Below are positions 15,824 to 43,000 of a stretch of 64,000 bases of DNA, one piece after another. Source of the stretch: Psychromonas sp. 14N.309.X.WAT.B.A12 (GTDB lineage Bacteria > Pseudomonadota > Gammaproteobacteria > Enterobacterales > Psychromonadaceae); the NCBI RefSeq assembly GCF_030397575.1, contig NZ_JAPNXS010000001.1, positions 620,001 to 684,000 of the forward strand. Reading direction: 5' to 3'. Both the position numbers and the translations under genes were made by a program. The notes beneath the pieces were generated by a model. It saw only the letters and a program-made list of their open reading frames with translations, ran no database searches and had not been told where the DNA came from. How positions within the stretch are numbered: the stretch's first letter is position 1; each line of letters begins with the position of its first letter.

Positions 15824-15838
15824 CCTAGTAAATAAAAA

Positions 15839-15867: not shown

Positions 15868-15903
15868 CAATATTATGCTTATTAATAGGCCAGTTTATCC
15901 GAC

Positions 15904-17100
15904 TTATATTTCAGATTTTTTTGCATCAACGTCTATTGATGATAATGGTTGTTTAATCGCTCCACCTAAATACGCAATCACTGTTGCTACCGTCATAACG
16001 CAAACAATAGGCCACAATGAGTCATAACTTAAAAGCGCAGCTAATGCACTAATAGCAGCACCTAACATATACTGAGTAGCACCTAATGTTGCAGCTGCAA
16101 CCCCTGCATTTTTTCCGAAATAATTCATAAAACATGCACTGGAGTTTGGAATAACTCCTCCCATTGTTGCTGTAATAGCCACAAAACCTAATACTGTTAA
16201 CCATAAAGATTCAGGGAAGAAAGCTGTGGCCACAATCAAAATAACCGCACCAGTTAATTGCACTATTAAAAATGACTTCAATAATTGATTCGGCTCGTAC
16301 TTATGTAAAAGATAAGTATTAACACGATTAACAATTGAAACCCCTGCTACATTAAGTATAAGCAACACAGAGAAAAAGGTTTCACTCACACCAAAATGTG
16401 CAATATAAGCAAATGGAGCGTTTGTCAAAAATGTCATTAACACTGAAAAAGAAAAGCCCTGCGCCAATAAGAACCCTAACGCTCTCTTTTCTTTGAATAC
16501 ACTTAAATAACCACCACTTTTGTTCGCTTGTTTAACTTTTATTTCAGTAGGCATTACTAATAATGTTGCTACCGCCACAATCGCACCAACAATAGCTAAT
16601 GAAGTGAATATCCATCCCCAGTTCGATAACTTTAATATAAGCGTACCAACAGATGGCGCAATTGAGGGGGCTAGCATGGTGATTAACATGATTAATGAAA
16701 ATAGACGTGCAGCATCTTTACCTTGTGCATTATCTCGAATAATTGCAGGTACGCCTACCACGGCAATACCGCCACCCAAGGCTTGTATCATTCTCACTGT
16801 CCATAACATTTCTAAAGAATGTGCATACGGAATAGCGAAACTACCTAAAGTAAATATAATGAGACCAACAACAATAATAGATTTACGGCCGAATTTATCG
16901 GATAACGGTCCTCCTACCAATTGTCCAATAGCCAAACCAAAAATATAAAGACTAACGGTAACAGCAACCATGGAAATATCCGTATTAAGATCTTTTGCCA
17001 TGATTGGAATTGCTGATAAATAGCCGTCAGTGGCGAATGGTGTTAATGCAGAGATGCCTGCAAGTAACAATAATAGTGATGTAGATATGTGTTTGCTCAT
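15904..17100 (-). CDS. Bcr/CflA-type multidrug MFS exporter
   Basis: This 398-aa protein has about 12 membrane helices and belongs to the drug:H+ antiporter-1 group, Bcr/CflA subfamily. Diagnostic segments are the N-terminal TPFATDGYLSAIPIMAKDL, the motif-A loop GGPLSDKFGRKSIIVVG (about 63-79), VRMIQALGGG, and the motif-C-like MLAPSIAPSVGTLIL. It likely exports small drugs or metabolites by proton exchange. The ATG at 17100 follows gaggg. It is divergent from a marR gene, and the shared 94-base gap carries two copies of an 18-base element, so it is probably the target of that regulator. Confidence 0.93.
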   Translation of the reverse strand: MSKHISTSLLLLLAGISALTPFATDGYLSAIPIMAKDLNTDISMVAVTVSLYIFGLAIGQLVGGPLSDKFGRKSIIVVGLIIFTLGSFAIPYAHSLEMLWTVRMIQALGGGIAVVGVPAIIRDNAQGKDAARLFSLIMLITMLAPSIAPSVGTLILKLSNWGWIFTSLAIVGAIVAVATLLVMPTEIKVKQANKSGGYLSVFKEKRALGFLLAQGFSFSVLMTFLTNAPFAYIAHFGVSETFFSVLLILNVAGVSIVNRVNTYLLHKYEPNQLLKSFLIVQLTGAVILIVATAFFPESLWLTVLGFVAITATMGGVIPNSSACFMNYFGKNAGVAAATLGATQYMLGAAISALAALLSYDSLWPIVCVMTVATVIAYLGGAIKQPLSSIDVDAKKSEI

Positions 17101-17112
17101 AAAACCCTCGTT

Positions 17113-17160
17113 ATTTAGCTTTCTAGAAAGATAATAATTGCAATTTAGCTTTCTAGCAAG
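17113..17160. promoter_or_regulatory. Twin operator for the MarR regulator
   Basis: Two copies of atttagctttctag-a/c-aag lie at 17113-17130 and 17143-17160. They differ at one base and are spaced 30 bp start to start, three helical turns. Each contains a palindromic core (ctttctagaaag in the first). They sit between the divergent exporter and marR starts, where a MarR dimer would control both. Confidence 0.65.
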
Positions 17161-17194
17161 GTATATTTACATTATATTAATTGAAGGAAGTAAT

Positions 17195-17695
17195 ATGAGT
17201 AAACAAAGCTCCATTGCTAATGTACTAGCGAAAACAAAAGCAAACTGGCCAGAATCAAATAACCAAATATCACCTGAAATATTGCGTATTCATCGTGTTA
17301 GTGCTTATTGCCAACAGAATTTATCATTGGTACTTGAACCTTATGGGTTACAAGTTGCTGAATTTTCGGTATTAGAAACCTTAAGAAAAGAAAAGCCTCC
17401 CTATTGCCTTACTCCAACTGAATTATCCAGTGCTATGTTATTTAGCTCTGGTGGCTTAACCAAAGTACTTAATAGAATGCATACTGCTGGATTAATTCAA
17501 CGGATGGATAACCCTAATGATAAACGCGGGAAATTAGTTCAGCTAAGTGAATCAGGCCAATCATTGATCGGTGAAGTCATTGTAAAATTACATAATACTG
17601 AGCAACAAAAATTTAATGTATTAAACACAGAGGAAAAGGCACAATTGAATCACTTATTAAATAGAATACTGCAAGTGTGGGAAGAAGATGCTTAA
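17195..17695 (+). CDS. MarR family transcriptional regulator
   Basis: This 166-aa winged-helix protein has the MarR layout: an N-terminal helix for dimer contact, then FSVLETLRKE, LTPTELSSAMLFSSGGLTKVLNRM (recognition helix) and the wing motif MDNPNDKRGKLVQLSESG. The frame opens at 17138, but the ATG at 17195 has a good gaaggaag ribosome site and the conserved sequence begins after it; the longer form would also overlap the second operator copy. MarR proteins usually repress a divergent exporter and respond to small phenolic or drug ligands. That fits the layout here, with the Bcr/CflA gene opposite and the DUF1499 gene 33 bases downstream. Confidence 0.92.
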   Translation: MSKQSSIANVLAKTKANWPESNNQISPEILRIHRVSAYCQQNLSLVLEPYGLQVAEFSVLETLRKEKPPYCLTPTELSSAMLFSSGGLTKVLNRMHTAGLIQRMDNPNDKRGKLVQLSESGQSLIGEVIVKLHNTEQQKFNVLNTEEKAQLNHLLNRILQVWEEDA

Positions 17696-24248: not shown

Positions 24249-25820
24249 TTATTTATTGTATTGATCGTGTGATGTTTTGATTTTGTAGAAAGTTGCTTGT
24301 ACATAATCCTCGGCATCACCAGTGTTATTTTGGTTATACGCACCCACTTTAAAGTACATGTAACGACCGCCTTGGTCATAACCACTCTTACTCATATCAA
24401 CCACTTGCACAGCATCATCTTTACCGTCACGTTTTAATGTAACCGTCATTGTGTTACCTTCAACTTTGATTTGGTATGAGAATACTTCACCAAGTGCAAT
24501 ACCATCTTCAACTTCACCACTTAAATCACCTACTAAACTAAAGTAGTTGTCTGAACCTTCCAGTGTGTTTTCATGTGCAAAGTAAACTGAACCTGTGTCT
24601 CTGTTTGGTAATTTACGGTAGTAAAGACGAATCGGCTCATCATCTTGATCATGAATTTGACCAATAATGAAACGACCTACTTGGCCTAATTCACCCGTTG
24701 TTGTAGTGTGGTCAACTTTCATTGTTACATCCATTACACCATCTACACCACCAGCAGCTTTCAAATCAGCTTCAGGAGCACTACCGAATACCCAGTTATT
24801 TTTGTTAACGCCTTTCGTTGGAATTGATTTATCACCACGACGTAACATTTCACGCATTTCTGTACGTGTATATTTAGTATTTTTAGAAGTACGTGTACCT
24901 TTGATGAAGGTTTTAATAACTAGACCACCGTCGTCACCAGTATAGAAAAGCTCTGGTTGCTCATAGCCTTGATTTAAATACCATTCGTTAACATCATCAG
25001 GCTTACCATTTTTATCATGGTCAAAAGGTTGTGATAGGTACCAAGTTGTTAAGTCAAAGTTTTCACCTGGCTTATTACCTGCTTTTGGTACTGCAGGAAT
25101 TACTGGCGATTTAAGTGGCACATCCCACCATGTTTTCTTAGTACAATCAGAGACTGCTGAATCACATTTCAATGGAACGTAAGTACCGAAGTCACCTTTA
25201 CGTAATGCAGCCATTCTTGCTTTTTCTTCAGCTTGTTTAGCTTTAGCAGCTTTGTTAGCTGCTTCATTAGCGGCAATAACATCACTAGTTACAAACTCAT
25301 TAGCAAGACAAGTATTAATAGCACAATTCACTGCGTAAAATTCAGTTAAACTGTTCCACATATTTTTAGTGTTACCATGTCCAACATATTTAATATAACG
25401 CGCTTTTACCGCAGTAAATGGAAAGCGTTCTATCGACGTGATCTTGCCAGATGACTTTTCACCTTCAAGTACAGCTGTCCAAGTATTTCCGTCTTCACTC
25501 ACTAAGATATCAAATGTACTAGCGCGCTCATTGCCTTTAGAAAAGGCGATACGTACTGCATCAAATTCAGCAACTTGACCATAATCTAACACTGCATAAG
25601 AGTTATCACCACTTGCAGACCAACGCGTTGACGTATCACCATCAATTAGACGATCAGGGCCATTACCATCATGCGTACTTGATATTGCTTCAACCACTAC
25701 TAGCGGTGCTGAAGTACCTGCTAAGTTAATTGGACCAACAGGCTCATCTGTTGTTGCACAACCAGATAAAGCGATAGCAACTGAAGTGCTTAGTAATAAA
25801 TTTAATTTTCCGTGTTTCAT
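24249..25820 (-). CDS. Alginate lyase lipoprotein, CBM32 plus PL7
   Basis: This 523-aa lipoprotein (ALSGC, lipidated Cys21) has an N-terminal discoidin/F5-8C module of CBM32 type (about 40-165; DGNGPDRLIDGDTSTRWSA, YIKYVGHG). A helical Ala/Lys linker follows (about 180-205), then a PL7 alginate lyase domain (about 240-520). The three PL7 signatures are present: Arg319 in RTEMREML, Gln388-Ile-His390 in QIHDQ, and Tyr489/Tyr495 in YFKVGAYNQ. These supply the catalytic His and Tyr and the substrate Arg and Gln. QIH rather than QVH is usually linked to poly-G or mixed alginate. It cleaves by beta-elimination at the cell surface. No transporter or second lyase lies nearby. Confidence 0.93.
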   Translation of the reverse strand: MKHGKLNLLLSTSVAIALSGCATTDEPVGPINLAGTSAPLVVVEAISSTHDGNGPDRLIDGDTSTRWSASGDNSYAVLDYGQVAEFDAVRIAFSKGNERASTFDILVSEDGNTWTAVLEGEKSSGKITSIERFPFTAVKARYIKYVGHGNTKNMWNSLTEFYAVNCAINTCLANEFVTSDVIAANEAANKAAKAKQAEEKARMAALRKGDFGTYVPLKCDSAVSDCTKKTWWDVPLKSPVIPAVPKAGNKPGENFDLTTWYLSQPFDHDKNGKPDDVNEWYLNQGYEQPELFYTGDDGGLVIKTFIKGTRTSKNTKYTRTEMREMLRRGDKSIPTKGVNKNNWVFGSAPEADLKAAGGVDGVMDVTMKVDHTTTTGELGQVGRFIIGQIHDQDDEPIRLYYRKLPNRDTGSVYFAHENTLEGSDNYFSLVGDLSGEVEDGIALGEVFSYQIKVEGNTMTVTLKRDGKDDAVQVVDMSKSGYDQGGRYMYFKVGAYNQNNTGDAEDYVQATFYKIKTSHDQYNK

Positions 25821-26612: not shown

Positions 26613-28283
26613 CTAAACAGTAAACTTATTAGTCATCTCAGCGATTAATTTAGATTGTAGTTCTAAACTTGCAAACTGTGACCTTGCTTCTGTCGAGCTA
26701 TTACCAATATCTTCAGCCAATGAAGCAATGCCGTTAATTCGTTCCGCTATCTCAGAGGACACTGTTGATTGTTCACTAGCTGCTGTTGCTACTTGTACAT
26801 TCATCTCTGATAATTGTTGAATACCTTGATTACTGCTGTGAATAAACTCTCTTATTTTTGCCATGGCATCGGTCACAACTTGTCTTTGTTCATCTGAACG
26901 CGCCATATCTTGTACTGTTTTCTCTGCACTATCTTGTAACTTATCTAGAATCCCTTTGATTTCAACTGTACTATCCTGGCTTCGTTTAGCAAGATTCCTC
27001 ACTTCATCAGCAACTACCGCAAACCCTCTCCCCTGTTCACCTGCTCGTGCAGCTTCAATAGCTGCATTTAATGCTAACAAGTTAGTTTGTTCTGAAATAC
27101 CTTGAATAACGCTTAATACAGAATGGATCAATGTCACGTTATCACCCAACTCGTTGATTGAACCTTCTACTCCTTTCATTAAACTATTTAAATCTTCAAG
27201 CTGCTCATTGGACACTTCTACTTGTTGTAGTACACCTCTTATTTCTGTTTCCACAGCAGTAGCTGAAGCACGTGTTTGTTCTGCTGTATTTGCTATTTCA
27301 TTTGATGTTGAAGACATTTGGTCAATAGCTGCAGCCACTTGTACCGTTTCTTCTTTCTGTTGATTTGATAATGCCTCTAAACGAGCTTGCTGCTGACTTG
27401 ACTGACTAGCAATATTGTTAAGCTCTTCACTGGTGCCTTTTAAATTCTTAATATCTAATCCCATCGCAGCCAAAAATTTATTGAAATCTGCTGCTAATTT
27501 ATCGAGTAGAGATATATAACTAGCTGGTAAGGTAGCCGTTAAGTCTCCTTCTCCTGCGGCTAATCCATTCACTGAGACACTTAAGTTATTAAGTGGCAAG
27601 TATAATTTATTAATAGCAATAAAGACGGCAACTGCCACTATTATAAAAGCGATCAAGAACAGAAAAATTGCATCATTGATTGCCTCTGTAGCAACTTCAA
27701 CAATCGCTGCATCGACTTCTTTTTGTGCTTTCTCTACATCGTCGATGTAAAAGCCCGTTGAAATGACTATGTTCCATTTTGGTACTAATAAAGAGTATGA
27801 ATATTTTGGAGAAGGTTCCGTTGCACCAGGCTTAACAAAGTAATAAGTGCTATAACCCGTTCCATCTTTTGCAGCGCTAATAACATTCTGAGTAATATAA
27901 TTACCTTTTTTATCTTGGTTATTATAAAAGTTTTTACCAATACCCTTACCAGAACCACTTTGTAAACGAACACCTTTTAAGTCATAAGTAAAAATATATC
28001 CCGTACCATTGTCATAACGTAGCTTATCGATAACAGATAACGCTTCTTTTAAACCACTATCACCGGGTAATTGAATGTAATCCTGTATCATAGAATAAGC
28101 TGAGTCCACGACAGTTTTTAAACGTTTTTTCTCTATTGCTAAAGTGTTGTTTAAGGTCATCTCTGACACTTTATCTTCAATGACAGTCGTACTACGAATT
28201 TCACTGTACAAACCAAGACCGGCCATTATCACAAAGGGAATAAAGACCAGTAGGTATATTTGCACTTTAAGCGAACGTAACAT
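26613..28283 (-). CDS. Methyl-accepting chemotaxis protein with single Cache sensor
   Basis: This 556-aa receptor has membrane segments at about 8-27 and 202-223. They flank a Cache_2-type periplasmic domain ([54 protein letters not shown]), the form that often binds carboxylates or similar small ligands. A HAMP segment ([24 protein letters not shown]) and a signalling domain follow, with hairpin [20 protein letters not shown] and [18 protein letters not shown]. The ligand is unknown. It is one of three chemoreceptors in the window, none next to a che operon. Confidence 0.95.
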
Positions 28284-28853
28284 ATTTTAAACTCCATCTT
28301 ATTTTATAAAATTAAATTATTGGTTATCCGTACCCATTTTCTGGTAATCATCGATCTGGATTATTAGTTGCTTAGTACATCCTTCATTCCATTTGAATTG
28401 CTTATGCACTCAATAAATATATTACTAAAGTAATACAAAAGATACTTAATAGGACAGTTTGTGACTATTGTGTGGGCTAGATTGCACCGATTAAATAGAG
28501 AGCAATTGAACATTTCTATACGTCTTCTATTTAATTCCAAAGATTGATCTAAAGACTATATCGACCAAATTACGATTTACCTGAATAATAATTAAATATT
28601 TTTTCATGCACCCTTGTGGTTCATATAAATAGAAGCTAACCACTAATATTTAGTTAGTTATAAGCATTATCAATACATTTAACCTCGCACCAAAATGTAC
28701 CTATCACCTCTTTTTTGCACCTTTATTGTGAAGCTAAATAAACGCACTCTTTTAGCAAAAAAACACTATTGAACGATCGTATATTTAAGGGTAATCTAAA
28801 AATGCTAAATGAATAAAAACGATAAAAAAGAGTGCATTTATAAGGAGAAGGAT
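28284..28853. other. Intergenic region upstream of the ABC operon
   Basis: The divergent chemoreceptor gene and the ABC operon share this 570-base AT-rich region, which must hold both promoters. A frame open from an ATG at 28809 joins the operon's first gene, but it lacks a ribosome site. No operator was recognisable. Confidence 0.4.
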
Positions 28854-30875
28854 TTGAATTATTCACCGTTTGTAGACCGTATAAAAAGCCAAGGTGGCGA
28901 TGTTTGGAATATCCATTTTGAAGCCTTAAATGCGCAACGAAAAGGTGAAGATACAATCATATTGAGTGTCGGTGATCCTGATTTTAATACACCAGATGTT
29001 ATTTGTGATAGTGCAATTAGAGCGATCAAAGAAGGCGATACTCATTATACCGATACCTGCGGTCATATGGCTTTACGTGAGAAAATAGCAGAGGTGCATA
29101 ATCAAACAGCTAAACATGCTGTTGGTGTAGAAAATGTGGTTGTACTGCCGGGCACACAAAATGGCTTGTACTGTGCTGCAACTTGTTTATTAACCGCGGG
29201 TGATGAAGTACTCGTTATCGACCCTTCTTATGTCACCTATGAAGCAACACTCAAATCAACTGGTGCAACCATAGTGCCAGTACCCACATTAAAAGAAGAG
29301 CATTTCCGACTCAGTCACACAGCATTGCGGAAACTAGTAACAGAAAAAACTAAAGCAATATTTTTCGCCAACCCTAATAACCCAACTGGCCGAGTGATGG
29401 ATCGCGATGAACTGGAAGAGATAGCAGCAGTCGCTAAAGAGTTTGACCTTTGGGTCGTTTCTGATGAAGTTTATCAATCACTAAGTTTCAGCAAAGAAGT
29501 TATTTCGATTCGTGAATTAGAAGGTATGCAAGAACGTACTATTACCCTATCTAGCCTTTCTAAATCTCATGCCATGACGGGTTGGCGTTCAGGTTGGATG
29601 ATAGCCAATCCAACCATGATCGGACATATTGAAAATCTCACTTTAAACATGTTTTATGGGCTGCCAGGTTTTGTACAACAAGCTGCTATTACTGCTTTAG
29701 AGCATTACCAATCTATTAGTAGTTCAATGCTTGAAGTGTATAAACATCGCCGTTATCTAGTAATGGACATGCTGAAAGATTGCCCTGCAGTTAAATTGAT
29801 CACACCAGATGCAGGTATGTTTGTACTAGTCGACATTCGTCAATTAAATATATCCGCAAAGGAGTTTACTTGGAGTTTATATAGGCACACAGGCGTAGCA
29901 ACTTTAGATGCAGAAGCTTTTGGTAGCTGTACGAAAGGATTTGTTCGCTTATCTTTCTCTGTCAGTGAGTCCGAATTAACAGAAGCTTGCTCTCGTATCA
30001 AAAAGTTTGTCACCGAACTAGTTGAAGGCACTATTACCATAGCAAGCCAACAAGCTGAACAAACTTCAACAATAGAAAGTGCAGTTGAACCCAAAATTAT
30101 TCTGCCTAAAAAAGTCATAGAAGTAGTTAACTTACATAAAAGCTTTGGAGATCACGAAGTATTAAAAGGTGTTTCTTTATGTGCTCGTGAAGGTGAAGTT
30201 ATCTCATTAATTGGCGGTTCAGGGTCAGGTAAAAGTACCCTATTACGCTGTATTAATATGTTAGAGGTACCTAATAAAGGCCTTATCTACGTCAACGGTG
30301 AAGGTATCAATACCGATATTGACCATAAAGGTCGTCCATTTGTTACCAACCAAAAACAACTGTTAGATATTCGTTCTCGTCTCGGGATGGTATTCCAAAA
30401 CTTTAACCTTTGGCCACACCGCACTGTGTTAGAAAATTTAATCGAAGCACCTATTCACGTATTTGGTGAATCTAAAGCTGTAGCGACTGAACGAGCCGAA
30501 GCTTTATTGGAACGTGTTGGAATGGCACATAAGCGAGATCAATATCCAGGGTTTTTATCCGGTGGCCAACAACAACGTGTCGCTATTGCAAGAGCTCTCG
30601 CTGTTGAGCCAAAAGCCATGTTATTTGATGAGCCGACCTCCGCTTTAGATCCAGAACTGGTAGGAGAAGTATTGAAAGTCATCCGCTCTTTAGCTGATGA
30701 AGGTCGCACTATGATCTTAGTGACACATGAAATGGCATTCGCGCGTGACGTTTCTTCTCATATAGCTTTCTTACATCAAGGTGTTATTGAAGAGCAAGGT
30801 AAACCAAGTGACATATTTACCAACCCACAAAGTGAGCGGTTCTGTCAATTTATCAATGCTCAACATAATCGCTAA
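28854..30875 (+). CDS. Aminotransferase-ABC ATPase fusion protein
   Basis: One frame (673 aa) joins two enzymes. Residues about 1-395 are a class I PLP aminotransferase of the aspartate aminotransferase fold: SVGDPDFNTPD, FANPNNPTGR, VSDEVYQ, the PLP lysine Lys237 in SLSKSHAMTGWRSGW, and FVRLSFS. After a linker (about 395-425) comes an amino-acid ABC ATPase: Walker A GGSGSGKST (454-462), Q-loop VFQNFNLWPH, signature LSGGQQQR, Walker B AMLFDEP, H-loop VTHE. Both halves look intact. The TTG at 28854 is chosen because AAGGAG lies six bases before it; an in-frame ATG at 28809 has no ribosome site. Two permeases, a DMT exporter and a binding protein follow at once, so the fusion likely powers uptake and transaminates the same amino acid. 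Confidence 0.92.
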   Translation: MNYSPFVDRIKSQGGDVWNIHFEALNAQRKGEDTIILSVGDPDFNTPDVICDSAIRAIKEGDTHYTDTCGHMALREKIAEVHNQTAKHAVGVENVVVLPGTQNGLYCAATCLLTAGDEVLVIDPSYVTYEATLKSTGATIVPVPTLKEEHFRLSHTALRKLVTEKTKAIFFANPNNPTGRVMDRDELEEIAAVAKEFDLWVVSDEVYQSLSFSKEVISIRELEGMQERTITLSSLSKSHAMTGWRSGWMIANPTMIGHIENLTLNMFYGLPGFVQQAAITALEHYQSISSSMLEVYKHRRYLVMDMLKDCPAVKLITPDAGMFVLVDIRQLNISAKEFTWSLYRHTGVATLDAEAFGSCTKGFVRLSFSVSESELTEACSRIKKFVTELVEGTITIASQQAEQTSTIESAVEPKIILPKKVIEVVNLHKSFGDHEVLKGVSLCAREGEVISLIGGSGSGKSTLLRCINMLEVPNKGLIYVNGEGINTDIDHKGRPFVTNQKQLLDIRSRLGMVFQNFNLWPHRTVLENLIEAPIHVFGESKAVATERAEALLERVGMAHKRDQYPGFLSGGQQQRVAIARALAVEPKAMLFDEPTSALDPELVGEVLKVIRSLADEGRTMILVTHEMAFARDVSSHIAFLHQGVIEEQGKPSDIFTNPQSERFCQFINAQHNR

Positions 30876-30889
30876 TAGGGGAAGTTTTT

Positions 30890-31600
30890 ATGAATGAAGC
30901 AATGCAACTACTCGGATTCGGTGAAGGAGGATGGGGACCAGCATTATTAAGTGGTACCTGGGTAACCCTACAAATATCTATTGGCGCGTTCATTGTCGGT
31001 ATTTTGATCGGGTTATTAACGGCATTAGCTAAGCTATATGGCAACCCTTTTTGCCAATCCTTTGCCCGTGGTTATACCACTATATGTCGCGCTGTACCTG
31101 AATTATTACTAATACTGCTATTTTTTTATGGAGGCAGTAGCTTACTCAACATGCTATTAGATTATTTAGGATATGGCTACGTTGAAATTGCTGGTTTACC
31201 CGTTGCCATTATCGTATTGGGATTAGTACAAGGCGCTTACGCATCTGAAATATTTCGAGGATCTATTTTAGCAGTTCACTCAGGTCAAGCTGAAGCAGGT
31301 TCAGCTTATGGTATGAACCAACGTAAAGTGTTTTTTAGAATTACCTTACCAATTATGGCGCCACATGCATTAGCTGGATTATCTAACTTATGGGTTAATT
31401 TAATTAAAGACAGTGCCTTAATCAGTGTAATTGGTACTAACGAGCTGTTATACACAGCTAAACAAGCTGGTGGTTCTACTCGTGAATATCTGCTGTTCTT
31501 TGTTTCAGTTGCAGTTATCTATTATTTAATCACCCTTATTTCTAGTTATCTTTTACGCAAACTTGAAATTCATTTACGCCGCTGGCAACCAAAACACTAG
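30890..31600 (+). CDS. Amino-acid ABC permease, HisQ/ArtQ type
   Basis: This 236-aa protein has five or so membrane helices and the polar amino acid permease signature: SGTWVTLQISIGAFIVG at the N-terminus, ICRAVPELLLILLFFYGG, and the ATPase-docking loop EAGSAYGMNQRKVFFRITLPIMAPHALAG (EAA motif). It follows the fusion gene by 14 bases. With the next gene it should form the heterodimeric channel for the binding protein encoded at 33227. HisQ-like transporters carry basic or polar amino acids; the substrate is not readable. Confidence 0.92.
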   Translation: MNEAMQLLGFGEGGWGPALLSGTWVTLQISIGAFIVGILIGLLTALAKLYGNPFCQSFARGYTTICRAVPELLLILLFFYGGSSLLNMLLDYLGYGYVEIAGLPVAIIVLGLVQGAYASEIFRGSILAVHSGQAEAGSAYGMNQRKVFFRITLPIMAPHALAGLSNLWVNLIKDSALISVIGTNELLYTAKQAGGSTREYLLFFVSVAVIYYLITLISSYLLRKLEIHLRRWQPKH

Positions 31601-31608
31601 GAGTAAAC

Positions 31609-32292
31609 ATGGACGTCTTAATTGACTATTCGAATCTTATTTATGAAGGGTTACAAGTTACCTTAGCGTTATTAATCATTGGTTTAATTTTTGGTTTTAT
31701 CTTTGCTATTGGTGTTGCACTGGCACGATTATCAAAATACAGGGTGATTGCTTACCCTGCTTTTCTCTTTACTAGTGTGATAAGAGGTACTCCATTACTG
31801 GTACAAATTTATATCTATTATTATGGGCTTGGCACCCTATTTTCCCATGTACCATGGATTCGAGGACACTTTTTATGGCCCTATCTACGTGATGGCTTTT
31901 GGTACGTTGCTTTTGCCCTAATTATATCGACAGCCGCTTATTTAAGTGAAGTTATTCGTGGCGGTTTATTAGCTGTACCTAAAGGAGAGGTAGAAGCCGC
32001 AAGAGCCTATGGAATGACTGAAACTAAGGCCTTATTACGAGTTCGATTACCAAGAGCATTGTATCAATTAGCACCGACTTTAGCCGGTGAAACCGTTCTG
32101 TTATTAAAATCTACTGCATTAGCATCAACCATTGCAGTCGTTGATCTATTAGGCGCCGCTAATCAGATCCGCTCTATTACCTTTGAAGTGTATAAACCGC
32201 TGTTATTAGTGGCTGCAATTTACATTATTGCAACCTATCTAATTGAATTCATATTTGCACAATTCGAAAAACGCATCCCAATGAAACAATAA
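31609..32292 (+). CDS. Amino-acid ABC permease, HisM/ArtM type
   Basis: This 227-aa membrane protein is the second half of the channel. It shows EGLQVTLALLIIGLIFG, SVIRGTPLLVQIYIYYYGLG and the EAA loop EVEAARAYGMTETKALLRVRLPRALYQLAPTLAGE. It starts eight bases after the previous stop, behind aggag, so translation is probably coupled. Confidence 0.92.
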   Translation: MDVLIDYSNLIYEGLQVTLALLIIGLIFGFIFAIGVALARLSKYRVIAYPAFLFTSVIRGTPLLVQIYIYYYGLGTLFSHVPWIRGHFLWPYLRDGFWYVAFALIISTAAYLSEVIRGGLLAVPKGEVEAARAYGMTETKALLRVRLPRALYQLAPTLAGETVLLLKSTALASTIAVVDLLGAANQIRSITFEVYKPLLLVAAIYIIATYLIEFIFAQFEKRIPMKQ

Positions 32293-32303
32293 GGAATAGA
32301 TTG

Positions 32304-33197
32304 ATGTTAATAAACAATAAATCAGTTAACAAAGGTATTTTACTTTGCTTTGCTGCATACGCTATTTTTTCTATTCAAGATGCAGTCATGAAATGGATGG
32401 TTGCCGACTTTGGTGTCGCAGAATTATTATTCTGGCGGAGTCTTGCAGCGCTCTTCATCTGCTTAGTCATTGGTCGTTCGACAATTATTAAACAAACAAT
32501 ACAATCCCCTGTTATCAAACCATTAATGTGGCGTAGTTTAATCGCCGCTTTAGCTTGGGTATTTTATTACTTATCAGCAAAAGAACTAAGTTTAGCGCAG
32601 ATGACAACCATCTATTACTCTGCACCAATAATTGTAGTGGTATTAGCAGTACTATTACTCAATGAAAAACCCACCAAACTGCAATGGACAAGTGTTTTTA
32701 TTGGATTTATTGGCGTATTAATCGCTTCACGCCCTGGATTCACTAGCCAAGCTTTATCAGTATTTTACGCACTCTTTTCAGCGCTGTTATGGGCTTATAC
32801 CTACATCTTATTAAGAAGGTTATCAGGTAAAGCAAGTATCCTTGTACAGATGGTGGCAGCTAACTTTATGTTTATCGTGATCACAGGTGTCAGTTTACCT
32901 TGGACATTTACCTCATTGGATAGCACAGCTATTTTAGTAATGATGATCACTGGAGTGATCGGCGCAGCAGGACAATACTTCTTGTTTGCCAGTTTTGAGC
33001 ATGTTGAAGCCACTGTACTCGCGCCCATTGAATACACTGGTCTTATTTGGGCATTTATTTTCTCTTATCTAATTTGGGGAAGTGAACCCAACAACTATTT
33101 AATCATCGGAGCGTTCATGATTGCAGTTAGTGGTTTTGTCTCAGTACTAGCCAATAATAATAAAAATAAAACACTTAAATTACACGCAGAAACTTAA
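32304..33197 (+). CDS. EamA/DMT family transporter
   Basis: This 297-aa protein has ten membrane helices in two EamA repeats (about 8-140 and 150-290), e.g. AIFSIQDAVMKWMVADFGVAELLFWRS and LLWAYTYILLRRLSG. DMT proteins of this kind mostly export amino acids or other metabolites. The ATG at 32304 follows aaggaat; the adjoining TTG at 32301 is less likely. It lies inside the ABC operon between the permease and the binding protein, an unusual place for an exporter. It may release the transamination product or excess amino acid, which is inference. Confidence 0.88.
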   Translation: MLINNKSVNKGILLCFAAYAIFSIQDAVMKWMVADFGVAELLFWRSLAALFICLVIGRSTIIKQTIQSPVIKPLMWRSLIAALAWVFYYLSAKELSLAQMTTIYYSAPIIVVVLAVLLLNEKPTKLQWTSVFIGFIGVLIASRPGFTSQALSVFYALFSALLWAYTYILLRRLSGKASILVQMVAANFMFIVITGVSLPWTFTSLDSTAILVMMITGVIGAAGQYFLFASFEHVEATVLAPIEYTGLIWAFIFSYLIWGSEPNNYLIIGAFMIAVSGFVSVLANNNKNKTLKLHAET

Positions 33198-33226
33198 TTT
33201 TATTACTCACAACAAGGAAGAAGAAA

Positions 33227-33982
33227 ATGAAAAAAGCATTATTAGCACTCTCTATGGCATTTACTGCTATTTCAGCACAAGCTGCAGATACAATTAAATT
33301 TGGTGTAGCAGCAGAACCTTACCCGCCCTTTGCAACAAAGTCATCGGATGGCACTTGGCAAGGCTTTGAAATAGATTTAATAGCAGATATATGTAAAGAA
33401 GCAGCATTAGATTGTGAGGTCAAAGAAGTTGCATGGGATGGTATTATTCCATCCTTAGAAAGTAAAAAAATAGACGTTATCTTTGCGTCAATGACAGTCA
33501 CAGATGAACGCGCAAAAAAGGTACGTTTCACTGCACCATATTACAACACACTTCCAGCGATTGTTGGTCTTGATGGGCAGGAATTTGCACTTGATAAAGA
33601 CACGCTAAAAAGAAAAATAATCGGTGTTCAAACCTCTACAATTGCCGCTTTTTACATTAAAGAAAAAGCAGGAAAGTTTACCAGTATACGTTATTACGAT
33701 ACGCAAGATGCAGTTAACTCAGACCTTTTAGCAGGACGTATTGACTTCATGATAGCCGATGATATTCCAGCCACTGACTTTTTTAATAAAAATAAAGATG
33801 GTCTAAAATATTATGGTGCAGTGGAATACGAAGAGATGCTAGGTAAAGGGGTTGCAGCAGGCGTCCGTTTAGAAGATAGTGAACTTGAAAGTAAATTAAG
33901 TACTGCAATTAAAAAAGTTGTTAGTAGAGATCATTACAATGAGCTCTCAATCAAATACTTTGGTACTAATATCGCTCCTTAG
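33227..33982 (+). CDS. Periplasmic amino-acid binding protein, family 3
   Basis: This 251-aa protein has a signal peptide (cleavage after AQA near residue 19) and the SBP_bac_3 fold: IKFGVAAEPYPPFATKSSDG, WQGFEIDLIADICKEA, VAWDGIIPSLESKKIDVIFASM, TDERAKKVRFTAPYY, and the basic/polar-binding DLLAGRIDFMIAD. The Arg in TDERAKKVRF and the Asp in DFMIAD normally hold the ligand alpha-carboxylate and amino groups. Similarity to ArgT/HisJ/AotJ-type proteins points to a basic or polar amino acid. It is the last gene of the operon, before a strong terminator. Confidence 0.93.
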   Translation: MKKALLALSMAFTAISAQAADTIKFGVAAEPYPPFATKSSDGTWQGFEIDLIADICKEAALDCEVKEVAWDGIIPSLESKKIDVIFASMTVTDERAKKVRFTAPYYNTLPAIVGLDGQEFALDKDTLKRKIIGVQTSTIAAFYIKEKAGKFTSIRYYDTQDAVNSDLLAGRIDFMIADDIPATDFFNKNKDGLKYYGAVEYEEMLGKGVAAGVRLEDSELESKLSTAIKKVVSRDHYNELSIKYFGTNIAP

Positions 33983-34063: not shown

Positions 34064-34681
34064 TTAATTATATAAACCTGCTTTAAACCCTATAGTCCAG
34101 TTTCTACATACACTTAATGAATCTTGCAGTGAAATATGTTGAGGCGCTAAACATTGTCTAACCCAAAGACCATCTAACAATGCCATTAATCCCTGAGTAG
34201 CTAGTGACACATTGGTACCCTGTAAATTTTCATCTTGTTTTATTTCATTTAGCAATGCTTTTAAAATAACTTCTATCCGTCCATTTGCTGTTTCATAAGC
34301 GTCAGCCATTCCTTCCGAGTCTCTGATTAAACTCCAAAAGACTAACCAGGGCTTTAATAGGCTTTGGTCAAAAGATTCAACATCAAAATGAATACGAAAA
34401 AATGCATCTAACTGTGCTGAAGCATCGCCTTCACAAGCTTCAAGCATGCTTTCTATATTAACCATAAATTCATCAGAAACAGATTGATAAGCATAAATAA
34501 TTAAAGCATTCATTGAACCAAAATGGTGGTTAACTAACCCTTGTGAAACATTCGCTTCTTTAGTTATTTTACGTACCGATAAACCAGCATAACCATCAGC
34601 GATTAAACTTCTTATAACGCCTTGTACCATCAGAGATTTACGTTCATCGGGTTCTATTCGGTCAAACTTTTTAACTCGCAT
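34064..34681 (-). CDS. TetR/BetI-like transcriptional regulator
   Basis: This 205-aa regulator has a TetR helix-turn-helix at the N-terminus (IADGYAGLSVRKITKEANVSQGLVNHHFGSMNALI, about 30-65) and an all-helical ligand domain resembling BetI (LLKPWLVFWSLIRDSEGMADAYE, LMALLDGLWVRQCL). BetI-like members often control transport or use of amines, amino acids and choline. It converges on the ABC operon, with ends 81 bases apart, which makes it the obvious candidate regulator. The start at 34681 is supported by the conserved N-terminus. Confidence 0.9.
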   Translation of the reverse strand: MRVKKFDRIEPDERKSLMVQGVIRSLIADGYAGLSVRKITKEANVSQGLVNHHFGSMNALIIYAYQSVSDEFMVNIESMLEACEGDASAQLDAFFRIHFDVESFDQSLLKPWLVFWSLIRDSEGMADAYETANGRIEVILKALLNEIKQDENLQGTNVSLATQGLMALLDGLWVRQCLAPQHISLQDSLSVCRNWTIGFKAGLYN

Positions 34682-34897: not shown

Positions 34898-36673
34898 CTA
34901 ATGTTTCGTTTCCATATTAATTGGGGTAACACTGATAACCACAGATCCTGTTAAACTGATATCCCCATCTGTTACAGAATAAGTAAAACCCTCAGAACCA
35001 GTTGTCTCTTCACCGTTGTGTTGGTAAATAATTAAGCCCGCAGTAATATCTGCTTGGGTAAAGGTATCACCAACACTGAGTGTGACACCGTCCAATGAAA
35101 ATACACCTTCGTCGTTATCTAATGTCTCTATTGTAAATACAATTTGTGACGCTGAATTATCAGCATCATTATATAAAAGCTCAGTATCACTAAAGGTTAG
35201 ACTTTCACCTTCACCTATTGAGACTTCAACCACAACAGCCCCATCTTCATCAGGATCTAAACTACTGTCTGCTTCAAGTGGGTCATTGTAAGCGGTTATA
35301 GTGATGTCAAATACTTGATTGTTTAATGTATTACCCGTTCTATCTACAACTTCATAAGTAAAATTATCAGCAGTCACTTCGCTGCCATCGTTAACATAAC
35401 TCAATAAACCGTTGTCGATCTCATCCTGAGTGAAGGTATCACCAAGATATAATACGGTACCATCAAGATTTAACTGTCCAGCGCTTGGCTCTGAAAGCAG
35501 GGTATAAACAATCTCACTTGCTTCTGACTCAGGGTCCGTTGTATTTAATTCAGTGTTTGTAATGATTTGTTGTGTGGGATTATTAAGATTACTTTCTTCA
35601 TCAAAGGTTGCACTACTGTCAGTGATCTCAGCAGTATCATCTGTGCCAGTTACGGTTATGGTTAAAGTAGCCGTTTCAGTTGTATTATCACTAACATCTG
35701 TCAATGTGTAAGTAATAGAAGTTGTTTGTGGTTCACCGTCTGCTAAGTAATCAAAATCAGTGCCAGGTTCAAAACTATAATTACCATCGCCGTCTACTGT
35801 AAAAATACCACCGTCGGAGCCTTCAACATCGGTATTAAGAGCATCTCCACCATTCACCGCCGTGACTACTTTATCACCCGTAGCGGTGTCGTTATCTAAA
35901 ACATTTCCACTCAGGCTAGTGTTCTCTTCTGTGCTAGCAGAGTCATCATTCGCTCCTGCGCTCAGTAATAAATCGTGAGCAGAGGCATCTGTTTTGAGTA
36001 AAGTAATAGATTCAGCTTCTATATCACCCACTGTGTATTCTAAATCCCAGTCTCCTCCCAATGCATCAGAACCAGTATCATCAACAGAAGCCGCTACATC
36101 CAGTCCTGTTAATAAAGCGAATTCTTGTACAAATTCTTGACCTGTTTCAGTTTCAGCAACATTACAACCAAACAATAATAAGTCTGCCCCCTCTTCCGTG
36201 GCATCCTGCCAGGTTGCAATCAAATCATTGTAGTCTGCTAAGGTATCAGAGTTTAGGTTGGTACTACCAAGAAGTAATTCGCCATCATCACCGTGGCTGA
36301 CTATTTGAATTGAGCTTAAAGAGTCATATTGAGAAAGGGTTTCTGTAATTTGATCGATGCCATTTTCATTAGCATCTAAAATAATGACTAGCGTATTTTC
36401 ATCTGCATCTACAGTATAACCGCTATCAGTAACTCGGCTATCAATAAACACAATCTGGTCTATGTTGTCAGCAGATGAATTAAGGGATACTAGGCTCGCA
36501 GAAAGTGATTCAATCTCAGCTAATTTTGCCTCTGACTTTTCTTCGTTATCAACTTGTTTTTTTGCTGCAACATCTGCTGAGTCTGATTGGCTATCATTGA
36601 CTTCACTAGCCGTTACTAAGGCAGCAGCGTCCAGTAAAATCCTAGGTTCTAGCTCGTAATACCCCTTGCTCAT
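34898..36673 (-). CDS. DUF4347 protein, short form of a giant adhesin
   Basis: This 591-aa protein begins with LEPRILLDAA (residues 8-17), a motif that opens many very large RTX-type surface proteins. A DUF4347 domain follows (about 70-225; VSHGDDGELLLGS, LLFGCNVAETETGQEFV), then an Ig/VCBS-like repeat (ANDDSASTEENTSLSGNVLDNDTATG) and two copies of a cadherin-like repeat (TFTQDEIDNGLLSYVND / TFTQADITAGLIIYQHN). It stops abruptly five residues after VTPIN, where such repeats normally continue. The calcium-binding RTX nonapeptides and the type I secretion tail are missing. It is therefore probably a truncated remnant, although the strong aaggag site suggests it is still translated. Confidence 0.82.
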   Translation of the reverse strand: MSKGYYELEPRILLDAAALVTASEVNDSQSDSADVAAKKQVDNEEKSEAKLAEIESLSASLVSLNSSADNIDQIVFIDSRVTDSGYTVDADENTLVIILDANENGIDQITETLSQYDSLSSIQIVSHGDDGELLLGSTNLNSDTLADYNDLIATWQDATEEGADLLLFGCNVAETETGQEFVQEFALLTGLDVAASVDDTGSDALGGDWDLEYTVGDIEAESITLLKTDASAHDLLLSAGANDDSASTEENTSLSGNVLDNDTATGDKVVTAVNGGDALNTDVEGSDGGIFTVDGDGNYSFEPGTDFDYLADGEPQTTSITYTLTDVSDNTTETATLTITVTGTDDTAEITDSSATFDEESNLNNPTQQIITNTELNTTDPESEASEIVYTLLSEPSAGQLNLDGTVLYLGDTFTQDEIDNGLLSYVNDGSEVTADNFTYEVVDRTGNTLNNQVFDITITAYNDPLEADSSLDPDEDGAVVVEVSIGEGESLTFSDTELLYNDADNSASQIVFTIETLDNDEGVFSLDGVTLSVGDTFTQADITAGLIIYQHNGEETTGSEGFTYSVTDGDISLTGSVVISVTPINMETKH

Positions 36674-37009: not shown

Positions 37010-40000
37010 CTAATTTAAACTTGATTTTACTAATCTAGATAGCCTAGTTCCAATGCTCAGTAACGCTTCGCTTGATAAAATATCATCATGCGAAAATGGC
37101 AGCCTATATTTTGTCAAGTCATTAACAAAAGGTGCCCAGGACTTAACTTCATCCCAACCTTCAGGTAAGGTTTTTTCAGCGACAAATAGATGTACTTTTC
37201 CTGAGTAACTTTGCGTAGTTGCTTTGGACAATAAGCGCACCGTATCATCATAGTTAGCCACAATATCATTAAACATTTTGTCTTGTTCTGCGAGTCCTGC
37301 TTTGTCTGAAATATCATTTTCGGCAGCAGCAAAGAATTGACGTTTTTCACGTTCCACTTCCTCTCTTGCTTCTGCTTCAGTAGGACGTTTCCATTCTTGT
37401 CCTTCCGGTGGATAGGTATCTAATAATCCAACAAAAGAGACCTGCTCACCCAACCTCTCAAGTTTAGCCGCTAAGGCAATCGCGACAGTTCCACCAAACG
37501 AATACCCTAAGAAATGATAAGGTCCTTGTGGCTGTACACCCTTCAATGCCCTAAAATAATGCTCAACGGCAGCTTCCATATCCTCACTGACAGCAACAGC
37601 ACCATTAGGTCGAGGTGACTGTAAACCAACTATTGGGTAATTCCCTTCAAGGTATTTTGGAAGTCCAGTGTACTGCCATGAAAAGCCTGAGCCCGGATTG
37701 ATACAGATAAGCGGTGTACCTTGCCCTTGTCGAATAGGTAAGATATGTCCAAAACCTGCTTTTTCAGGATCATTACGTAATGTTTCATCAACTAACACTG
37801 AAGCCAACTCTTCAATAGTAGGTGAAACCATTATCTGTCCAACTGACACAGGCAATCCTAAACTCGCTCTTAATTCAACGGCTAACTTCATGGCCATTAA
37901 CGAATGACCACCTAAATTAAAGAAGCTATCTTGTGCTGAAATATCATTTACATTTAATAACTTCTTAAAGGCTTGAGCAATAGTTTGTTCAACACCTGCT
38001 GTTGGTTTCCTGCCTGTGCTAGATTGACTTTGTTCTGGGTCAGGTAATGCCTTTTTATTTAACTTACCATTTGCACTCAGTGGAAACTCGTTTACTTCAA
38101 TTAAAGCAATGGGAATCATGTGCGTAGGTAAGCTCTCAGAGAGTCTACTTAACATTTGCGAAGCGTTTAAATGCAGCCCTTGGTTCACCTGATTGTTAGC
38201 AATATAATAGGCCACCAGCTGACGATTATCTTGAAGTGGTTGTGTTGGTATTGAGCGTTGTAAAGCTCGTGCATCAACCGTCACTTTTTTAATCTCATCA
38301 AAACTTAGTAACGCTTGCTCTATCTCTCCTATCTCTACACGTAAGCCACGAATTTTTAATTGGTCATCAGTGCGCCCCAAATAAATCACATTGCCATCAT
38401 TTGACCATTTAGCAATATCGCCGGTGCGATACATGCGTTGACCGTCCGCTTGAGGATCTGCAACAAACCTATCTGCAGTAATATCGGGCCTATTTAAATA
38501 TCCATTGGCGAGTTGTTGTCCTGTTAAGTACAGTTCTCCAATACAATCAACACCAACAGGGCGAAGTTGATGATCTAAAATTCGTAGCTGAGTATTCCAA
38601 ACAGGCAAACCAATTGGCACTTCAGTTAGTTGATTTTTAGTTGCTTCATTAGCCGGAAAATAAGTAACATCAACAGCAGCTTCGGTTGGCCCATAAAGAT
38701 TATGTAATGGCTTATCACTGATTGCTTCAAACTGTTCAACCAAACCAATTGGTAGCGCTTCACCACTACAAAATACTCGCTTTAATCTACTATTTAATGC
38801 AGATAGTTGGTTAGTTCCTGATGCATGCTCAACAAAGGTCGCTAACATCGAAGGAACAAAATGCAAGGTTGTAATGTTTTCTGAAATAATAGTATCTAAT
38901 ATGGCTTGAGGGTCTCGGTGTGCCTCAGGCTCAGCCATAAATAAGCATGCGCCCTCAATTAATGGCCAGAAAAACTCCCACACTGATACATCAAAACTTG
39001 AAGGTGTTTTTTGTAAAATAACATCCTCGCTAGTGAGTTGATACGCAGCTTGCATCCATAACAGTCGATTAACAATAGCTTGATGCGAGACCACCACACC
39101 TTTTGGTTTACCCGTAGAGCCAGACGTATAAATAACATAAGCAGGATCGTCAGCTTTAATTGTTTTTACAGCATGCTCAGAAAATGAATTATCCGTTTTT
39201 TGCTGTATTAATAAGCGATCGATTAAAATAATGTTAAGTGATAGACCACTAAAAGCAGGCTTAGCAAACCTTGGCAGTTGCTCTTTGGTTGTGACTAAAG
39301 TGGTGACTTTTGCATCTGATAACATAAAAGCTAATCGTTCATCAGGATAACTGCTGTCCAGGGGTAGGTATGCAGCCCCTATCTCAATAACTGCTTGCAG
39401 AGCAATACTTAATTCACAACTCCTAGGGACTGCAATGGCAATGAAGTCTGTACCGGAATTATCGCTATTATTTTCCTGTAACAAACCTGTTGCTACGTTT
39501 TCTACTTGATGACGCATTTGTTGGTAGGTAAATGATTGTTGCGCATCTTTTAATGCGATTTTAGTCGGCGTTAGATGTGCTTGCTGCTGTAGTAAATTAC
39601 GCAAAGAATGTTCTTTTACAACAACATCAGTCTGGTTCGCTTTGCATATCACTTCCTGATCTTGCTCAGTTTGAAATATTAATTCGGGTACTGAAATTTC
39701 TGAGTTATTAACTAGTTGCGTTAATATTTGGATAAAGCGTTGTACTAACTGTTCAGGTGCTTTAACCACATCTCTGTATTCAAACAAAATACGTATATTA
39801 TCACCAGGTAGTACTAATATAGTCAGTGGATAATGTGTATATCCTCTATTTTCAACTTGTTTAACTTCTAGTCCACGGTATGACTGGCTTAGGAAGTCCT
39901 GATCAGCTGGATAGTTCTCCACCACCAATAAAGTATCAAATAGATTATCGAGATTAGCAATCCGCTGGATTTCACCTAATCCTAAGTTATCATGAGACAT

Positions 40001-43000
40001 TAAAGTGATTTGCTGTTTCTGTAACGCCAATAACTGAGTTAACACCGTTTGGTAGCTATTAAAGTCAATAGCGACTGGTAAGGTATTACTGAATAAACCA
40101 ATTTGCTGATCAATACCAACTACATCACTGAATCGACCAGAAACTGGGCTACCGAATACCACTTTATCTCGTCCACACATAGCACCTAGCTGTAGGCCCC
40201 AAACTCCTTGTATTAAGGTATTTAGCGTCACTCCATGGTGTTGACAATATTGGTGTATTTGGGCACTTAACCGTGTATCTAAACTGGTTTTTAATTCTTG
40301 TACATCTGAAGTCGATTGTGCATAAAGCAGTGTCGGTGTTACGTCATTTAATGCTGTTCTCCAAGCTTGTTTTGCCGTTTCAGTTGAACTACTCGCCATC
40401 TCTATTACGACATCTTGATAACGCGCATTTAAAGTATCCACCTGCGCAGAGTCATCAACATAGCTACCAACATAATGCACAAATAGGTCCCTCAATAAAA
40501 TTGGGGTAGACCAACCATCAATAATGAGATGATGTGCCGTAATTAACAGTTCATATTGTTTATCGGCCAGTTTAATTAGATTAAAAAACAGTAATGATGG
40601 CAATATTTCACCTTGGCCATTATTGTTATCAAGTTCAAACACTCTGTAGGCTTCATCCATTTCTAAAGAATATAAAGCGCTTTGTTTATCTGATTCATTT
40701 AAAGTGCTGAAATCCAATGTATGCAGAGGTGCGTATTGTTTTGCACTAGATAATGAAATTTCCGGGATAATTTGCAAGGCTTTGCCTGTTAATTGCACAT
40801 CGAATTGTGCCGCTAATTGAGGGTGTTGTACGATCAATTTAGCGATCGCCTGTTGCAACTGTTCAGTATCAACTTCTCCAGCGATACTTAGTTTGGTGGT
40901 AAAACTATATTGACTATCTTCTCCTGCTATTTGCGCATGAAATAATAATCCGGCTTGCAAAGGCAGAGTAGGTAGAATATCCGCTTGTTCACCATAATGC
41001 TGACGTAGTAATTGATACTCTTGTTGATTAAATAGAGTATTTAACACTTTAGTTCTAGCGCGACTTTTATCCAGCTGATCATCAACTATTTGCTGTGTGG
41101 TTTTCGAGGTGGCTTGAATTTCTTTCATCGTGCCCAGCATTTTTTCTGCGGTTCTCGCTTGGAAAATGCTCTGTGGCCTTAACTCATAACCTTGTTTATG
41201 TAATGCAATACTTAACCGCATAGCACTGATACTGTCTCCAGCCATTTTGAAAAAGTCATCATCTAACGCCACGCTATCAATATCCAATACAGAAGCCATT
41301 TGCTGACATAACAACACTTCTTTCACCGTCTTAGGTATTAAGGCCCCCTGACTTAACATAATCGGTTTAGGTAATGCTTTTTTATTAATTTTACCACTCA
41401 CGGTTAATGGCATTTCATTTAAAATCGAGACTACAGAAGGCACCATATAACTTGGTAATACCGCATTCAGTTGTTTTAAAATACGAGCAACAACTTCTGA
41501 CTCATCGCCTAGTTGATGCTTATTCAAAGTACAGTAAGCCAATAAACGTTGACTATTATCATTTTGTTCAACAATAACAGCTACTTCTTTGGTTACCGTT
41601 AAACATGACAGTGCAGCTTCTACATCTCCTAACTCAATACGATAGCCACGAATTTTTACCTGATTATCACAGCGCCCAACAAATATTAATTGTCCCTGTG
41701 CTGACCAACGTACAATATCCCCCGTCATGTACATGACATCCCCATCCATAAATGGATTGGCTACAAATCGACTGGCTGTAATATCAGGTCTATTCAAATA
41801 CCCAGAAGACATATTATCACCAGCGAGATACAACTCACCATTAACGCCAATGGGAACAGGTTTTAGCTGTTCATCGAGTATATACACTGAAGTATTGGCA
41901 AAGGGTTTACCAATTTCAACATCAGGCGTTTTATCAGTTATCTGCTCACTAGTTGCATAAACGGTAAATTCCGTTGGCCCATAGATGTTATGTGAAGCAA
42001 TAGTGCTATTACGCAAGGTTTGCCAAAGCGAAGGTGGTACTGGCTCACCACAAATATCCATTAATTGAGGTTGATGTCTGCCCTCTTCACATAAACCGGC
42101 TTGCACTAGTTGTGTCGCCAAAGAAGGAGCAACGGCTAAAGTATCTATTTTATCTGATTCAATCGAGGCTAATAACGAGAAAACATCTTGTTTTACATTA
42201 TCAGAATAAAGGTGAAGTTTATGGCCTAAAGCCATTAAAATAATAGGATCCCAAGAGGTATCAAAGGACAAGGATCCAGTTAATGCAACACTTAATTGTT
42301 GCTTATTACAGTCAACACTTGGATAAACTTTCGCCTGTAAAGCACTAATAAGGTTGATTAATGCACCATGCGAGACAATTACCCCTTTCGGTCTTCCAGT
42401 AGAACCAGAAGTATAAAACACATAGGCAAGCTGCTGTTTTCTAACATCCGTTTTATCTTCCGATAAAGGCGTATCATAACAAGCTTCAAGTACGGTTAAC
42501 GTTGGCTTATCATCTAAACAAAGGGTTAATACTGTGTCAGGTAACAGGTGTTTATTGTCGATGGTGCTTAATGCAAGACTGGGGATTTTATCTTCACACA
42601 TCATGGCTAAACGATCTGCTGGATGTCCTAGATCTAGCGGCAGGTACACCGCACCTATATTCATGATGGCAAAAATAGAAATAATAGAATCAATACTGCG
42701 TGGCACAGCAACCGCAACCAAATCACCTGCTTTCACATCGTGAGAGAGTAACAAGCGGCTTAATTGATTAACACGTTTGTATAAATCTTCAAAACTTAAT
42801 GAATCCCCTTCATGAACCAGCGCAGTTTTATGCCCTGCTGTATTAGCTTGTTTTACCAACAACGAAACGATAGTTTCACCATAAGGGCTTGTATCAACTT
42901 TGGGGCCATTTGACCACTCAACTAATTGTAGTTTCTCTTCAGAAGTGACCATTGAATAACTATCTAAAGCAGGATGTAAATTAAACGCTACATTATGTGC

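Follow-up and report, generated by a model that had tools for sequence, protein, structure and literature searches.

An aminotransferase fused to an importer ATPase in a putative cationic amino acid uptake operon of Psychromonas and other bacterial genera

Class I aminotransferases and the ATPases of ATP-binding cassette (ABC) transporters are normally separate proteins, and a nutrient that has just been taken up is usually acted on by enzymes that are not part of its importer. In the 64,000-nucleotide stretch of Psychromonas sp. 14N.309.X.WAT.B.A12 analysed here (contig NZ_JAPNXS010000001.1, positions 620,001 to 684,000; hereafter the window, with coordinates counted from its first nucleotide), one gene encodes both. 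Comparisons of sequence indicate that this aminotransferase–importer ATPase fusion is real and conserved, and that the joining of the two domains is new relative to the literature we found; no description of the architecture was found in the open-licence PMC literature (titles and the beginnings of abstracts), and it may be in print elsewhere. The fusion heads an operon (Table 1) that we consider, with some confidence, to encode an importer for an arginine-like amino acid under the control of a TetR protein; the ATPase of this importer would carry an AruH-like transaminase, and the import and transamination of a cationic amino acid would thereby be combined.

The open reading frame extends from 28809 to 30875 (+), which gives 688 codons from its first ATG and 673 from the TTG at 28854. 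The TTG is likely to be the better start, because a Shine-Dalgarno sequence of the GGAG type precedes it both in the window and in a sister Psychromonas genome (G015), and because a stop codon lies a few codons upstream of the start in the sister frame. The protein matches the Pfam models Aminotran_1_2 (residues 48-397 of the 688-amino-acid form, E 6e-69, 233.4 bits versus a cut-off of 19.7) and ABC_tran (residues 452-611 of the same form, E 1.3e-34). Frame and Pfam matches together bear out the preliminary description of this DNA, which had reported a complete aminotransferase and a complete ABC ATPase in a single uninterrupted frame. In an alignment of three fusions (673-amino-acid numbering), Lys237, Asp204, Tyr207, Asn175 and Arg365 are identical, as are Q515, the LSGGQ sequence at 568-572, Glu593 and His625; the Walker A motif, which had been placed at 454-462 along with a pyridoxal phosphate (PLP) lysine at 237, is the same at 454 and 456-462 and deviates at 455 in the copy from Agrobacterium rubi. 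We take these residues to be the PLP-bearing lysine, the Asp, Asn and Tyr of the cofactor site, the carboxylate-binding arginine (Arg365) and the functional motifs of the ATPase. The N-terminal half thus combines an above-cut-off Aminotran_1_2 match with the PLP Lys, Asp, Asn and Tyr and the carboxylate Arg of class I/II aminotransferases, and the C-terminal half has the Walker A and B motifs, signature, and Q- and H-loops of an importer ATPase, alongside a family-3 binding protein.

Finer assignment of the two halves is less exact. The solved structure closest to the ATPase half is that of HisP (1b0u). This half scores 355.7 bits with the HisP model NF007908, below the equivalog cut-off of 466; it also falls below the NCBIfam cut-off for ArtP. 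The aminotransferase half matches solved entries labelled aromatic or aspartate aminotransferase (1dju, 1gd9 and 1o4s). An AlphaFold model of the fusion, built from a four-row alignment, had a mean pLDDT (predicted local distance difference test) of 47 and was too poor for use.

Genome sweeps were run at thresholds of 1e-108 to 1e-150, at which remote cases would be missed. Only two of 24 genomes of the window's own genus carry the fusion; the copy in the sister genome G015 is 91% identical. A plasmid of A. rubi encodes a fusion with 58% identity over its whole length, and the genus g324, which appears to be Pseudomonas-like, has one copy in 21 of 25 genomes (60-63% identity). The family to which genome G474 belongs has the fusion in 35 of 198 genomes and three of 19 genera. 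A sweep of the class (369 genomes) returned the window's own fusion only, with standalone relatives of the aminotransferase in five genomes, and a sweep of the phylum (398 genomes) returned the window's own and three more, all from g324, plus four further genomes with standalone relatives only. Among 385 genomes of the class of G430 there was no fusion, and five had standalone relatives. The search for the same two-domain architecture elsewhere, as proposed in the preliminary description, has therefore turned it up in a sister Psychromonas, on the A. rubi plasmid and in g324. In public annotation the A. rubi homologue is named for its aminotransferase half alone, and so the architecture is easily overlooked.

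Two other searches covered plasmids and genome contigs. Plasmid records searched at E 1e-60 gave 1081 matches, two of which were covered to 80% or more at a single site: the A. rubi fusion and Shinella pShin-08, which has two separate genes. The Shinella locus was rejected as a relative, as these genes belong to a different set (27% identity for the aminotransferase, 49% for the ATPase and 30% for the binding protein; 37% and 38% between its permeases and those of the window). A scan of genome contigs with weak patterns (107 stretches) gave nothing beyond the sister strain and a pair of remote aminotransferases.

The fused copies that were aligned, namely that of the window and 23 others gathered as strong full-length matches, are all open across the junction; the lack of a stop between the domains, reported earlier for the window, thus extends to 24 of 24 copies. 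Both the length and the sequence of the linker vary widely among them, and the flanking domains align cleanly and are conserved. Between the two Psychromonas copies the ratio of nonsynonymous to synonymous substitution (dN/dS) is 0.044 for the aminotransferase, 0.18 for the linker and 0.028 for the ATPase, values that are rough because synonymous divergence (Ks) is ∼1-1.3. Fused rows fall on one side of a branch both in a tree of the aminotransferase domain (10 of the 24 fused rows with 16 standalone enzymes; support 89/85) and in one of the ATPase domain (10 of the 24 fused rows with 17 other ATPases; support 93/92). One fusion event therefore suffices, and the trees are consistent with a single origin. 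Less easily reconciled with this is the first aminotransferase tree (24 fused and two remote rows), which put one remote long-branch row inside the fused group; the two remote rows were dropped from the second aminotransferase tree because their branches are very long.

In all 18 loci that were read far enough the fusion is accompanied by genes for a binding protein and two permeases and by a TetR gene in convergent orientation, and no separate ATPase gene is found among the module genes of these 18. The importer therefore presumably depends on the fused ATPase. Loci in g324 (16 of the 21 were read, up to 20 kb each) and in A. rubi were compared with the window by frame-free tblastn of neighbouring genes. 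The order fusion, binding protein, permease, permease, with the TetR gene convergent, occurs in 15 of the 16 g324 loci, and the contig of the 16th ends after the binding protein gene; A. rubi has the same order and convergent TetR gene with a drug/metabolite transporter (DMT) gene added. At the single annotated g324 locus (L057), the fusion operon lies between the arn operon for lipid A aminoarabinose (1661-8707, −) and prfC (15749-17422, −). In the window, gaps between same-strand genes of the operon are 8-29 bases, and the two permeases, EamA protein and binding protein lie downstream of the fusion as first described. The partnership of the fusion with importer genes and the companionship of a TetR/BetI-like gene, both proposed from the window alone, have held up in other genera. 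Scores of the permeases with TIGR01726 (HEQRo_perm_3TM) are 61.1 and 62.6 bits against a cut-off of 42.2, as for permeases of the HisQM/ArtQM type. With the BetI model TIGR03384 the regulator scores 87.7 bits, below the cut-off of 201.3, which makes it a TetR protein with a BetI-type C-terminus only; it is presumed to repress the operon.

Table 1. Features of the fusion operon in the window.
Feature	Position	Strand	Remarks
Promoter-like TTGAAC-N17-TAATCT with overlapping TetR operator-like palindrome	28769..28797	+	Palindrome at 28769-28783
Aminotransferase–ABC ATPase fusion gene	28854..30875	+	TTG start; open frame with class I aminotransferase and HisP-type ATPase
Subdivision of the fusion	Codons 1-∼388; ∼389-421; ∼422-673		Aminotransferase; flexible linker; HisP-type ABC ATPase
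HisQ-type permease subunit	30890..31600	+	HEQRo_perm_3TM above cut-off
HisM-type permease subunit	31609..32292	+	HEQRo_perm_3TM above cut-off
EamA/DMT transporter, accessory	32301..33197	+	TTG start; EamA Pfam match
Periplasmic binding protein, family 3 (SBP_bac_3)	33227..33982	+	Relative of Lys/Arg/Orn- and His-binding proteins; AAEPYPPF signature
TetR regulator with BetI-type C-terminal domain	34064..34681	−	Convergent; presumed operon repressor

The EamA protein matches its Pfam model in two stretches, corresponding to two repeats (102.4 bits versus a cut-off of 28.2), and is orthologous to the DMT protein of the A. rubi operon (48% identity over 280 amino acids); it is therefore no random neighbour. 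No EamA homologue is present within ∼5-9 kb in the 15 g324 loci read past the TetR gene, or in 13 kb around the unfused locus of genome G213. By these comparisons EamA is an optional accessory part, confined to Psychromonas and A. rubi and outside the core module, so that its description as an operon member stands for those two and fails for g324 and G213.

Genome G213 provides one complete unfused counterpart. There, genes for TetR, ATPase, binding protein and two permeases follow one another, and a standalone aminotransferase gene, itself followed by a gene for 5-guanidino-2-oxopentanoate decarboxylase (above its cut-off), is divergent from them. Identity with the window's proteins is 50% for the aminotransferase, 33% for TetR, 60% for the ATPase, 41% for the binding protein, and 48% and 47% for the permeases. 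The binding protein and permeases of G213 are nearer to those of the window than are those of eight full-set HisJQMP-type paralogue operons (32-36% for the binding protein, 34-40% for permease 1 and 30-38% for permease 2). The layout in G323 resembles that of G213 as far as the contig end; G418 has the aminotransferase, TetR and decarboxylase genes, and no transporter in the 13 kb read.

The promoters of fused and unfused modules have in common the palindrome TTGAAC-N3-CGTTCA or a close version of it. In each of the 21 g324 search loci, and in A. rubi, the exact form TTGAACNNNCGTTCA is found once ahead of the fusion gene, and TTGAAC-N3-CGTTCA is also exact upstream of the unfused aminotransferase of G418; the version in G213 and G323 is TTGAACGATTGTTCA. 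Exact matches were found in 41 of 129 loci searched, and all 41 are module members. The sister Psychromonas departs from the palindrome at one position and the window at two (TTGAACGATCGTATA, with a degenerate right half), and the window's site is not significant taken alone (18 two-mismatch sites found versus 26 expected by chance). We infer that the TetR protein would bind at this palindrome.

Genes beside the standalone relatives of the fused aminotransferase (46-50% identity) give a first indication of its substrate. A gene for 2-ketoarginine decarboxylase lies directly beside the aminotransferase gene in four of 16 standalone loci (G474, G213, G323 and G418), and in G686 it is ∼7 kb away. 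The binding protein of the window has as its best solved relatives the cationic-amino-acid, histidine and Lys/Arg/Orn binding proteins. It retains counterparts of two residues of the Lys/Arg/Orn-binding protein, Arg77 and Asp161, which we take to be the two anchors of the alpha-amino acid group, and has Glu at the position of Asp30 and Trp at that of Phe52. Its signature AAEPYPPF is shared by all 10 fusion-linked binding proteins compared and by that of G213, and by none of six paralogues in the alignment. Taken together, the anchors kept by the binding protein and the decarboxylase genes make the match between importer and transaminase substrates that had been suggested for the window plausible, and point to a cationic amino acid, arginine first, as the probable substrate. 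In a study of Sinorhizobium meliloti, AspC, an AruH relative adjoining the AruI homologue IlvB1, is described as transaminating arginine, agmatine, ornithine and putrescine with pyruvate, and IlvB1 as preferring 5-amino-oxopentanoate sevenfold (PMC7268258).

In the reading that we prefer, the operon would provide TetR-regulated uptake of an arginine-like (cationic) alpha-amino acid and the first step in its catabolism. Together with the permeases, the binding protein would form an importer of the HisQM/ArtQM type, with the C-terminal half of the fusion as its sole ATPase, and the transaminase, related to arginine:pyruvate transaminases of the AruH type, would turn the incoming amino acid into its 2-keto acid. 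In Psychromonas, for which no decarboxylase above cut-off was found, EamA may export a transamination product. An importer of this kind has a pair of ATPase subunits, and class I aminotransferases are homodimeric; each transporter would therefore carry one complete transaminase dimer, tethered by flexible linkers at the membrane's inner face. We infer that the fusion would assemble with these permeases in a 2:2 geometry and convert its substrate locally on entry. Physical hand-over of the substrate from importer to transaminase is possible, though in our estimation less likely than not. Less likely than not too, to about the same degree or slightly more so, is the full form of a transporter-bound transaminase, in which the ATPase dimer would at once be the PLP-enzyme dimer, making an import-and-convert particle whose companion exporter returns a product where EamA is present.

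The rival that we rate strongest, with a chance only a little short of even, is plain co-expression: the fusion would fix a 1:1 ratio and shared regulation of the importer and the first catabolic enzyme, and the transaminase would behave as if free in the cytosol, with neither hand-over nor any local advantage. Three points agree with this explanation: the linker is poorly conserved as well as long and variable, a single operator-like site lies between the aminotransferase and transporter genes of the unfused module, and enzymes of the class I aminotransferase type are normally soluble. Against it, the operon already provides co-expression, and still all 24 aligned copies keep the fused frame intact, an argument that is partly circular because the copies were gathered as strong full-length matches. 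A quite improbable alternative holds that the aminotransferase half serves mainly as a sensor, binding the amino acid inside the cell and turning ATPase activity on or off. Regulatory domains on the importer ATPases MetN and MalK set a precedent, and a ligand-binding domain does sit directly on the ATPase here; however, those domains are C-terminal whereas the aminotransferase is N-terminal, its catalytic lysine and its PLP- and carboxylate-binding residues are all kept, and it is under strong purifying selection. To an artefact we give almost no credence, whether a sequencing error or the production of two proteins from one frame by internal initiation. Its one attraction is the normal separateness of the two domains. 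An error joining two genes, judged unlikely from the outset, is refuted by fused relatives, which occur in genomes independent of one another and in three genera or more. Initiation within the frame to make the ATPase on its own was rejected since, between codons 370 and 436 of the window's copy, a stretch that spans the linker, there is no in-frame ATG, GTG or TTG and just one CTG (codon 417); in the sister copy a GTG (424) and a TTG (427) fall within the start of the ATPase.

It is possible, though less likely than not, that an AruH-like ancestor changed specificity and that the substrate is some other polar alpha-amino acid, an N-acylated derivative or a guanidino derivative. Several observations weigh against arginine or against the likeness to the unfused module. 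The decarboxylase gene adjoins the aminotransferase in only the four standalone loci named (L021, L086 and L087 were left out of this test), no AruI decarboxylase gene adjoins the window's fusion, and none above cut-off is present in four Psychromonas genomes tested, that of the window included. All 25 g324 genomes have the decarboxylase, including the four that lack the fusion, and G474 has a separate aminotransferase beside its decarboxylase gene; the fusion may therefore have another, related substrate. Several positions of the side-chain pocket in the window's binding protein are changed (11 Ala, 69 Ala, 121 Ile and 122 Ala), and the protein scores 184.7 bits with the Lys/Arg/Orn model TIGR01096, below the cut-off of 256.35. 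In each of the 15 readable g324 loci the TetR gene has a deacylase-like gene as its neighbour; the one copy scanned (L057, 14393-15412, +) is an AspA/AstE family member that matches DoeB weakly, and such a deacylase may mark an N-acylated substrate or by-product. The fused ATPase is 63-67% identical to seven of eight HisP-type paralogues and 60% to the eighth, the latter value being that for the ATPase of G213; by identity it is closer to most of these paralogues than to its unfused counterpart. In the S. meliloti study, AspC and IlvB1 are both called promiscuous (PMC7268258). In favour of arginine, the binding protein keeps its anchor residues and has an acidic residue (Glu) at the Asp30 position, and the unfused counterpart adjoins a 2-ketoarginine decarboxylase gene.

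Comparison with known systems sets the fusion apart. Like the importers HisJQMP, ArgT and ArtPQMJI, the operon encodes an ATPase, two permeases and a family-3 binding protein; unlike them, its ATPase bears an entire N-terminal aminotransferase, and its proteins score below the HisP, ArtP and Lys/Arg/Orn cut-offs. AruH-AruI of Pseudomonas aeruginosa and AspC-IlvB1 of S. meliloti resemble the standalone relatives that lie beside an AruI-type decarboxylase gene, whereas the enzyme considered here is within a transporter subunit and Psychromonas has no AruI above cut-off; the AruH likeness is drawn through those standalone relatives and not through the sequences of PAO1 AruH or S. meliloti AspC. 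MetN, MalK and the PCAT peptidase exporters also have an additional domain on a transporter subunit, but these additions are regulatory domains or proteases, whereas the domain on this importer ATPase is a PLP enzyme of amino acid metabolism.

Several other frames were noted near the operon. A methyl-accepting chemotaxis receptor is encoded nearby both in the window (26613-28283, −) and in A. rubi (L018, 18694-20967, −), and a functional link to the operon is doubtful because the two receptors do not share a type of sensor domain (sCache_2/dCache_2 versus MCP-like PDC). Further upstream lies a 523-amino-acid lipoprotein-like frame (24249-25820, −) that is alginate-lyase-like by eye; the sister strain (L022) has two adjacent frames of equal length (2723-4294 and 4426-5997) where the window has this one. 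Beyond the TetR gene, a repetitive frame of 591 amino acids (34898-36673, −), with LEPRILLDAAA near its start, looks by eye like large secreted repeat proteins, and the sister locus has a 1269-amino-acid frame nearby. The next frame noted, a very large one (37010-44308, −; 2432 amino acids), is nonribosomal peptide synthetase-like, with adenylation-type and thioesterase-like stretches recognized by eye, and is possibly siderophore-related.

With the conserved ATPase–transaminase fusion and its unfused relative, one can ask directly whether an ABC importer takes up its substrate better, or an intermediate is better protected, when the enzyme is tethered to the transporter. If the full form of the transporter-bound transaminase is correct, an imported cationic amino acid would be transaminated at the exit of the channel, and in the versions of the operon that include EamA a product would be sent straight back out of the cell.

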